A stretch of 40,505 bases of DNA. Origin: Candidatus Zixiibacteriota bacterium (GTDB lineage Bacteria > Zixibacteria > MSB-5A5 > UBA10806). The position numbers and the translations under genes are program-made. The notes beneath the pieces were generated by a model. The model saw only the letters and a program-made list of their open reading frames with translations. It did no database searches and was not told where the DNA came from. Positions 19,572 through 20,451 of this stretch are shown here, one piece after another. Each line of letters begins with the position of its first letter. Within the stretch, counting starts at the first letter, position 1. The stretch spans positions 2,761,366 to 2,801,870 of the forward strand of contig CP070742.1 of the NCBI GenBank assembly GCA_020348065.1. The letters are read 5' to 3'.

Positions 19572-19745
19572 TTTTACAACTCCTTGATGAAGTTAATTCT
19601 TTTAAGAAATACTGACATTTGTAAATCCTCTAAGCTTAATATAAAATAACCGATCAACCTGTCAATTATATTGACGTGAATGTAGTGTTCCAACATATGG
19701 TGTGCAACTATAAGTGATTAACGATCATCGGGTTACGAAAAATAA

Positions 19746-19820
19746 CGGGGCCGAAGAGACTCGAACTCTCGACCTCCTGCGTGACAGGCAGGCGTTCTAA
19801 CCAAACTGAACTACGACCCC
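19746..19820 (-). tRNA. tRNA-Asp (GTC)
   Basis: A 75-base cloverleaf: acceptor GGGGTCG pairs with CGGCCCC, discriminator G, D-arm with TAGTTCAGTTTGGTTAGA, anticodon stem CTGCC.../...GCAGG with loop containing GTC, and T-arm GAGAGTTCGAGTCTC. CCA is not encoded. It is the intact parent of the two truncated tRNA-like repeats at 19866 and 20226. Confidence 0.95.
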
Positions 19821-19865
19821 GGAGTTTACTATTTAATTTTCAAAGTTCGTAGGGTCTAAATTGAA

Positions 19866-19923
19866 CTCTCGACCTTCCCGACCGAAGGTCGGGACGTTCT
19901 AACCAAACTGAACTACGACCCCG
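19866..19923 (-). repeat. tRNA-Asp-derived 58-bp repeat, copy 1 (anticodon arm replaced by hairpin)
   Basis: Minus strand starts with the 5' acceptor strand and D-arm of tRNA-Asp (identical to the intact gene through ...TTAGAACG). The anticodon arm is replaced by a hairpin TCCCGACC-TTC-GGTCGGGA, after which tRNA-like GGTCGAGAG returns and the T-arm breaks off (this copy keeps a few more tRNA bases, GTTC). It has no anticodon, T-arm or 3' acceptor strand, so it cannot be a tRNA. It lies 12 bp after the stop of the GIY-YIG gene and is identical over 58 bp to 20226-20283. Confidence 0.88.
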
Positions 19924-19935
19924 TAAAATTATTAA

Positions 19936-20199
19936 CTATTTTAAAAGAACCGAATTCCTATTTATTAATTCCTCAATTCTTTTTCTGCTTTTCCACTTTT
20001 TTAATTGTCTTTCCCGAGCTAAGGCTTCCGGCCTGTTATCGAATTCCTCGGTGTAGACTACCTCCCAGGGTCTCCCTGATTTTGTCGATTTCGAGCGTCC
20101 TTCATTGTGTCTTTTTACGCGATCATCAAGATCAGCCGTTGTTCCGATGTAAAACCGTTCATTAATCTTGCTTTTTAAGACGTAAAGGTAAAAAGCCAA
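19936..20199 (-). CDS. GIY-YIG endonuclease domain protein (single domain)
   Basis: 87 residues from a TTG at 20199. The fold is complete: 'FYLYVLKS' and 'RFYIGTT' form the GIY-YIG core, Arg in 'LDDRVKRHNEGRSKST', then 'PWEVVYTEEF' and the metal-binding Glu in 'EALARERQLKKWKSRKRI'. The family of short stand-alone GIY-YIG proteins (UPF0213/YhbQ-like) has nuclease activity in the few members tested. The frame stays open upstream to 20427, but that part translates the tRNA-like repeat and tRNA-Val, so it is not protein; AAAAGGG precedes the TTG closely. The gene is bracketed by two perfect 58-bp tRNA-derived repeats and by intact tRNA-Asp and tRNA-Val, which suggests a tRNA-associated mobile gene. 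Confidence 0.85.
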   Translation of the reverse strand: MAFYLYVLKSKINERFYIGTTADLDDRVKRHNEGRSKSTKSGRPWEVVYTEEFDNRPEALARERQLKKWKSRKRIEELINRNSVLLK

Positions 20200-20225
20200 A
20201 TTGCCCTTTTCGTTTATTGCCTCTG

Positions 20226-20283
20226 CTCTCGACCTTCCCGACCGAAGGTCGGGACGTTCTAACCAAACTGAACTACGACCCCG
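20226..20283 (-). repeat. tRNA-Asp-derived 58-bp repeat, copy 2 (anticodon arm replaced by hairpin)
   Basis: Identical to 19866-19923 and exactly 360 bp away from it. It lies 26 bp upstream of the GIY-YIG start codon. The tRNA resemblance ends at GGTCGAGAG, slightly earlier than in copy 1. Confidence 0.9.
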
Positions 20284-20296
20284 ACTATCTTTGCGC

Positions 20297-20322
20297 GCTG
20301 TCAGGAGCCCCTTCCTGACAGC
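20297..20322. repeat. Perfect hairpin, REP-like
   Basis: A 10-bp perfect stem GCTGTCAGGA / TCCTGACAGC with a 6-base loop. The GTCAGGA/TCCTGAC ends recur in the hairpin at 39340-39381. No T-run follows, so it is not a typical terminator. Confidence 0.75.
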
Positions 20323-20332
20323 CGCCTGGAAA

Positions 20333-20356
20333 CCGTCGGGAAAGGGTTCCCGACGG
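20333..20356. repeat. Perfect hairpin, REP-like
   Basis: A 10-bp perfect stem CCGTCGGGAA / TTCCCGACGG with loop AGGG. It shares GTCGGGA/TCCCGAC with the hairpin inside the 58-bp tRNA-derived repeats. Confidence 0.75.
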
Positions 20357-20377
20357 CTCAATATTCGATTTTCAAAC

Positions 20378-20451
20378 TGGGCAGTGCTGGAGTCGAACCA
20401 GCGACCTTCTGCGTGTAAGGCAGACACTCTAACCAGCTGAGCTAACTGCCC
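20378..20451 (-). tRNA. tRNA-Val (TAC)
   Basis: A 74-base cloverleaf: acceptor GGGCAGT pairs with ACTGCCC, discriminator A, D-arm TAGCTCAGCTGGTTAGA, anticodon loop CTTACAC with TAC, and T-arm GCTGGTTCGACTCCAGC. CCA is not encoded. Confidence 0.95.

Follow-up and report, generated by a model that had tools for sequence, protein, structure and literature searches.

What does a solitary nuclease gene do between two broken copies of the same tRNA gene? The locus that raises this question lies in the window (the whole 40,505-nt stretch of Candidatus Zixiibacteriota DNA that was analysed), where the minus strand carries, in order, tRNA-Val(TAC), a pseudo-tRNA, a GIY-YIG nuclease gene, a second pseudo-tRNA and tRNA-Asp(GTC) (Table 1). 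The first-pass annotation had described a complete GIY-YIG gene bracketed by two perfect 58-bp copies of part of tRNA-Asp, with intact tRNA-Asp and tRNA-Val outside, and Pfam (PF01541), ARAGORN and Rfam agree on this arrangement; the copies are exact and spaced 360 bp apart. Its claim that the anticodon arm has been swapped for a hairpin with an 8-bp stem is borne out for both copies by alignment to tRNA-Asp. Each pseudo-tRNA consists, on the minus strand, of 29 nt of tRNA-Asp that run from its 5' end through the D arm and linker, a 19-nt palindrome (TCCCGACC-TTC-GGTCGGGA) where the anticodon arm belongs, and a 10-nt tail (AGGTCGAGAG) from the variable/T region of the tRNA. As single-stranded DNA, the 58 nt are predicted to fold into this hairpin alone (-10.6 kcal/mol, z = -2.6). 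The 3' half, which had been described as absent, is indeed missing from copy 1 but not from the copy beside tRNA-Asp, where the Rfam tRNA model spans 19850-19922 at 22.1 bits, a score under the cut-off, and picks up a degenerate 3' half. The 19-nt palindrome has no occurrence beyond the two pseudo-tRNA sites in the whole 3.74-Mb single-contig genome, which has 44 tRNA genes and one full-length tRNA-Asp. Pairing of tRNA-Val with tRNA-Asp is conserved among relatives, and those that share this context are Candidatus Zixibacteria. Two more perfect inverted repeats (CTGTCAGGAGCCCCTTCCTGACAG and CCGTCGGGAAAGGGTTCCCGACGG) lie between tRNA-Val and the first pseudo-tRNA (20298-20356) and may be terminators or leftovers of other palindromes.

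Table 1. Features of the tRNA-Val/tRNA-Asp locus, in window coordinates.
Feature	Position	Strand	Evidence
Intact tRNA-Asp(GTC), single-copy, host gene of the putative element	19745..19821	-	ARAGORN; Rfam 68.4 bits
Degenerate 3' half (T arm/acceptor) of the pseudo-tRNA adjoining tRNA-Asp	19850..19865	-	Rfam
Pseudo-tRNA-Asp copy 2: tRNA 5' part, hairpin, start of 3' part	19866..19923	-	58-bp repeat; tRNA-Asp alignment
Hairpin TCCCGACCTTCGGTCGGGA in anticodon-arm position, copy 2	19876..19894	-	
GIY-YIG nuclease gene, single-domain, 87 aa, probable TTG start	19936..20199	-	Pfam PF01541, 3.8e-19
Pseudo-tRNA-Asp copy 1, immediately upstream of the nuclease gene	20226..20283	-	Perfect 58-bp repeat
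Hairpin TCCCGACCTTCGGTCGGGA in anticodon-arm position, copy 1	20236..20254	-	DNA fold z = -2.6
Intact tRNA-Val(TAC), upstream member of the Val-Asp pair	20378..20451	-	ARAGORN; Rfam 72.6 bits

The encoded protein is a bare single GIY-YIG domain with the catalytic Tyr, Tyr-Ile-Gly, Arg, His and Glu of the superfamily; across 22 sequences Y12, Y23, G25 and E69 are invariant, and R33 and H37 are conserved in at least 90%. By sequence profile the closest solved structures are the single-domain UPF0213/YazA-type proteins 1zg2 and 1ywl, followed by the structure-specific nuclease SLX1 and I-TevI, and a distant plasmid match carries a yazA annotation. We know of no tRNA linkage of UPF0213/YazA-type proteins. 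The reading frame (19936-20427) is open upstream across the pseudo-tRNA into tRNA-Val, so that automatic annotation would add a spurious tRNA-derived N-terminus; the TTG at 20199 was chosen as the start based on the AAGGG box preceding it and alignment to the starts of relatives. One further GIY-YIG domain occurs in this genome, within a 620-aa frame taken for UvrC. Between the two intact tRNAs the nuclease is the sole ORF of at least 60 aa with an assigned function, and the unit contains no integrase or transposase, hence none of the tyrosine or serine recombinases found beside the tRNA in tRNA-integrating islands. Nor does any Rfam intron family match the region, and tRNA-Asp is uninterrupted, indicating that this is not a group I intron in a tRNA gene.

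Relatives of the nuclease were sought in 98 related genomes and many were found, most of the first 30 loci having a tRNA gene no more than about 200 bp away, always on the same strand. In a wider sample of class-level relatives (weak ones included, contig-edge copies left out), 45 of 69 gene copies have a tRNA within 400 bp, in all 45 cases on the same strand as the gene, where about 1.2% would be expected beside a tRNA by chance (P ~1e-68); an extra fragment of the neighbouring tRNA accompanies 38 of the copies. A second, separate collection of 80 named loci and 2 viral contigs was scanned with an alignment of closer relatives because that of distant relatives had no conserved stretch; here 60 of 82 loci fall within 300 bp of a tRNA and 59 are on the same strand, figures that convey breadth rather than a census as the loci are the best matches to one query. 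Over 108 loci the arrangement recurs in more than 10 phyla, those named being Zixibacteria, Bacteroidota, Armatimonadota, Chloroflexota, Acidobacteriota, Cloacimonadota, Fidelibacterota (Neomarinimicrobiota), Thermodesulfobacteriota, Methylomirabilota and several Patescibacteria lineages. The search for GIY-YIG genes near tRNAs in relatives, which the first-pass annotation had proposed, thus recovered such genes at tRNAs of many isotypes, along with partial copies that bear the same hairpin, and its notion of a minimal tRNA-targeting unit made of a nuclease and tRNA-derived ends is now well supported in many genomes. A phage origin was considered and rejected, as only 2 viral contigs matched, along with one phage and four plasmid matches that are all distant. 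We consider it probable that these loci represent a widespread minimal mobile element of tRNA genes, composed of a nuclease and a palindromic site, of which the insertion spares an intact tRNA.

In all, 116 tRNA fragments were identified in 70 of the 108 loci. Their anticodon-arm segment is usually a palindrome starting with TCCCG and ending with CGGGA, and stems of 6 bp or more are present in 77 of the 116 fragments compared with 4% of random 30-mers. Among 44 distinct inserts with both edges fixed by tRNA sequence, the outer stem pairs are near constant, while the inner pairs vary yet stay complementary; stem pairs 6-7 are complementary in 77%, against 45% (maximum 57%) with partners dealt anew, the former figure being possibly inflated by related sequences, and several pair types (A-T, C-G, G-C, T-A) occur. 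In Asp, Val and Ala tRNAs the hairpin takes the place of the entire anticodon arm, in Asn that of the 5' half of this arm and in Met that of the variable/T region; the Ser lineage likewise carries it elsewhere than the anticodon arm, and Gly loci have shorter palindromes. It is plausible that the hairpin marks the cut site, as first proposed from the window. The conserved palindrome, its lineage-dependent position in the tRNA and the REP-like palindromes flanking tRNA-free relatives (see below) make it more likely to be the recognition site of the nuclease than a scar. In one pseudo-tRNA (L094) a second palindrome, CCCCGAT...ATCGGGG, replaces the T loop, indicating that more than one arm is replaceable, and two palindromes are also present in L060 (Ser) and L049 (Met). 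ARAGORN calls the hairpin-arm pseudo-tRNAs of L086, L087 and L071 genuine tRNAs (Cys-GCA, Lys-TTT or undetermined), and such miscalls inflate the tRNA counts of carrier genomes.

Nuclease lineages are specialised by tRNA isotype, which requires 30 changes on the nuclease tree compared with 39 to 48 when labels are shuffled within phylum; a single class contains Gly, Met, Asn, Asp and Ser groups together with one REP-flanked group. The trees rest on ~80 columns with many forks not settled, and we use their grouping but not their deep order. As in homing endonucleases, an intron- and intein-free gene here has a phylogeny that tracks its target site, in the form of isotype clades. The REP-flanked sister lineage comprises five GIY-YIG copies away from tRNAs (L251 at G001:C1:810700-813800, L236, L238, L249 and L250), with REP-like palindromes mostly on both sides (ATTCCCG...CGGGAAT, ATCCCCG...CGGGGAT, CCTGAGC.TGTCGAAGG and GTCATTGCGAG...GCAATCTC). 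L251, from the genus of the window, is flanked by identical copies of TGTCATTCCCGAAATCTCTAATCGGGAATCCA, a family represented 21 times in that genome and 17 times in the genome of the window, and REP palindromes with the same TCCCG core number 2 to 27 copies per genome. REPs beside the sister genes are of the CGTC/TGTC-ATTCCCG type, and CGTC-tagged REPs lack a dedicated transposase (PMC3733652); we infer that the sister GIY-YIG nucleases may move or maintain them. Some related genes (L227, L228 and L246) have neither tRNA nor palindrome nearby, and a further tRNA-free gene (L224) is flanked by 78-bp direct repeats of 86% identity, also without a tRNA or obvious palindrome. REP/RAYT REPtrons similarly pair a palindrome family with a nuclease gene that its copies flank (PMC3733652), but RAYTs are HUH tyrosine transposases, whereas the present loci combine a GIY-YIG nuclease with a palindrome inside a partial tRNA; the palindrome pairing of a REPtron is present and its HUH tyrosine transposase with flanking REPs is not. 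One could suppose that the hairpins are non-autonomous repeats moved by another enzyme and that GIY-YIG genes travel with them by coincidence, as cargo or as genes of the host, which would agree with the multicopy TCCCG-core REPs and with hairpin copies that have no nuclease gene. We think this unlikely, as the nuclease tree sorts by insertion site, which is expected if the nuclease itself sets the site, and the unit has no transposase or integrase of its own.

The tRNA fragments themselves have a consistent geometry. Of 45 partial copies that precede the intact tRNA, 42 retain the 5' acceptor strand and 43 lack the 3' strand, whereas of 55 copies that follow it, 51 lack the 5' strand and 35 retain the 3' strand. 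This asymmetry fits the opening of a tRNA at the hairpin and the restoration of a complete tRNA between the two parts. Copies usually match the local intact tRNA perfectly in their 5' part, even where tRNA-Asp differs between genera, suggesting that the duplicate is made or corrected locally. The TAG box of the tRNA supplies the stop codon of the nuclease in L068, L094, L102 and L125. Exact substitution of the anticodon arm, this local 5' identity and same-strand placement in tRNA operons could also be accommodated by functional RNAs, with the pseudo-tRNAs acting as decoys or antitoxins, the GIY-YIG protein as a tRNA-directed toxin or processing enzyme and the hairpin blocking decoding. However, one acceptor-stem strand is missing in nearly all copies, indicating that a tRNA-like fold is not kept, the hairpin lies elsewhere in the Met, Asn and Ser lineages, the sister nucleases are paired with REP palindromes that have no tRNA sequence, and GIY-YIG enzymes are generally known as DNA nucleases, all of which makes an RNA function quite improbable.

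Comparison with orthologous tRNA-Asp loci, also proposed in the first-pass annotation, identified Val-Asp loci that lack the nuclease, the pair being unoccupied in about 20 relatives. Between the congeners G029 and G049, the former has a clean insertion that duplicates the tRNA-Asp 5' part and bears the hairpin but no nuclease gene, and in another genus the nuclease unit is present in G019 and absent from G010. Presence and absence of the gene at the same site among relatives, congeners included, is a further feature shared with homing endonucleases. The same-genus genome G001 was rejected as an empty site, as a full tRNA-Asp match was not found and the syntenic match is near a contig end. In a family relative (G002) the nuclease gene follows tRNA-Asp and has two stop codons, and nuclease pseudogenes are common. 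Tandem arrays of units occur in L100, L102, L125 and L094, and tandem nuclease genes are also seen. Hairpin-bearing copies without a nearby nuclease gene were found beside the matching tRNA, and either were moved in trans or have lost the gene. At L180 (G009:C23), tandem hairpin-bearing tRNA-Asp units lie between tRNA-Val and tRNA-Asp in a locus without a nuclease gene, a possible non-autonomous derivative. Insertions, empty sites, arrays and pseudogenes are the traces that a mobile element would leave. The anticodon arm of the intact tRNA-Asp beside the element is that of empty relatives, and we therefore rejected cleave-and-rescue by a recoded tRNA. An arm that is not recoded favours the hairpin, rather than the tRNA arm, as the actual substrate; were the tRNA arm a target, it would still be cut, and our model has no protection step. 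The obvious tandem duplications might instead mean that the nuclease gene is passively carried along by duplication of recombination-prone tRNA pieces, but this leaves unexplained a conserved palindrome in the same arm of different tRNAs and phyla, co-orientation in 45 of 45 cases and isotype specialisation, and is very improbable. A direct repeat of 58 bp without a mismatch, in a genome assembled as one contig, could reflect an assembly or annotation artefact or chance, the probability of which is next to nil given the same architecture, with different sequences, in dozens of unrelated isolate genomes and MAGs from many phyla.

In the mobile element that we favour, two parts would be essential. 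One is the UPF0213/SLX1-like nuclease with its single GIY-YIG domain; the other is a short palindrome, in most cases TCCCG...CGGGA, that the nuclease probably reads as a single-stranded hairpin or cruciform. The nuclease would cut the hairpin (donor) and/or the tRNA arm (target), and the cut ends, bearing tRNA-identical sequence, would recombine with the tRNA gene. The missing tRNA half would then be copied from the chromosome by recombination or gap repair, producing tRNA-nuclease-pseudo-tRNA or the reverse order. The outcome is a tRNA gene divided in its anticodon region, where the hairpin sits, with its outer pieces persisting as pseudo-tRNAs; a single intact tRNA is restored inside the insertion or next to it, so that an essential tRNA survives the event. 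Repeated cuts may give rise to tandem arrays. Co-orientation suggests that the nuclease gene may be transcribed from the tRNA operon. The loci themselves show the parts, their architecture and orientation, hairpin conservation, split geometry, isotype specialisation, filled and empty sites, tandem amplification and decay; cleavage specificity, recombination route and expression are in each case predictions from sequence.

Several known systems share parts of this arrangement. T-even phages carry at their tRNA genes a free-standing GIY-YIG homing endonuclease, SegB, which is implicated in cutting within tRNA-containing DNA and drives tandem amplification by homologous recombination; the SegB-tRNA association is described as widespread in phages and without isotype preference (extract of PMC13096335, citing Brok-Volchanskaya 2008). 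The likeness lies in a GIY-YIG nuclease adjoining tRNA genes and in tandem amplification, but SegB is phage-borne and the extract reports no hairpin-substituted split tRNA (PMC13096335). By contrast, the present family is chromosomal, is scarcely represented in phage and viral collections and consists of lineages that each specialise in an isotype. Integrative elements with tRNA att sites also insert in a tRNA gene and restore an intact copy, whereas the present unit is integrase-free, spans ~350 bp and has a foreign palindrome for an anticodon arm. Ssn enzymes, reportedly described by Chenal and colleagues in Nature Communications in 2025, are said to be site-specific single-strand GIY-YIG nucleases that act on a high-copy intergenic repeat affecting transformation, the NTS repeat of Neisseria. 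On that description they are comparable in combining a small GIY-YIG nuclease with a repeated cognate sequence, and we know of no tRNA-embedded sites of Ssn nucleases. Among the openly licensed papers searched, none was found to describe split tRNAs with a substituted hairpin in association with GIY-YIG genes, an absence that is not proof, and the tRNA-parasitising minimal element looks undescribed.

Genes for tRNAs are among the most conserved DNA in genomes, and an element that targets such genes usually brings an integrase with it. In that context, a ~260-bp gene and a 19-bp palindrome seem to be enough to target tRNA genes across many phyla, individual lineages being devoted to one tRNA each, and each locus provides a testable enzyme-site pair. 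The element also explains likely annotation errors, namely GIY-YIG proteins whose N-termini derive from tRNA sequence and pseudo-tRNAs annotated as tRNA-Lys or tRNA-Cys. More tentatively, these loci may belong to a class of mobile elements found throughout bacteria and smaller than any other known, in which a nuclease of ~90 residues and a palindrome jointly enter the anticodon arm of essential tRNA genes and restore the tRNA on insertion, with tRNA-dedicated lineages and with sisters that are the missing mobilisers of CGTC-type REPs, offering a candidate answer to the question of what moves such repeats.
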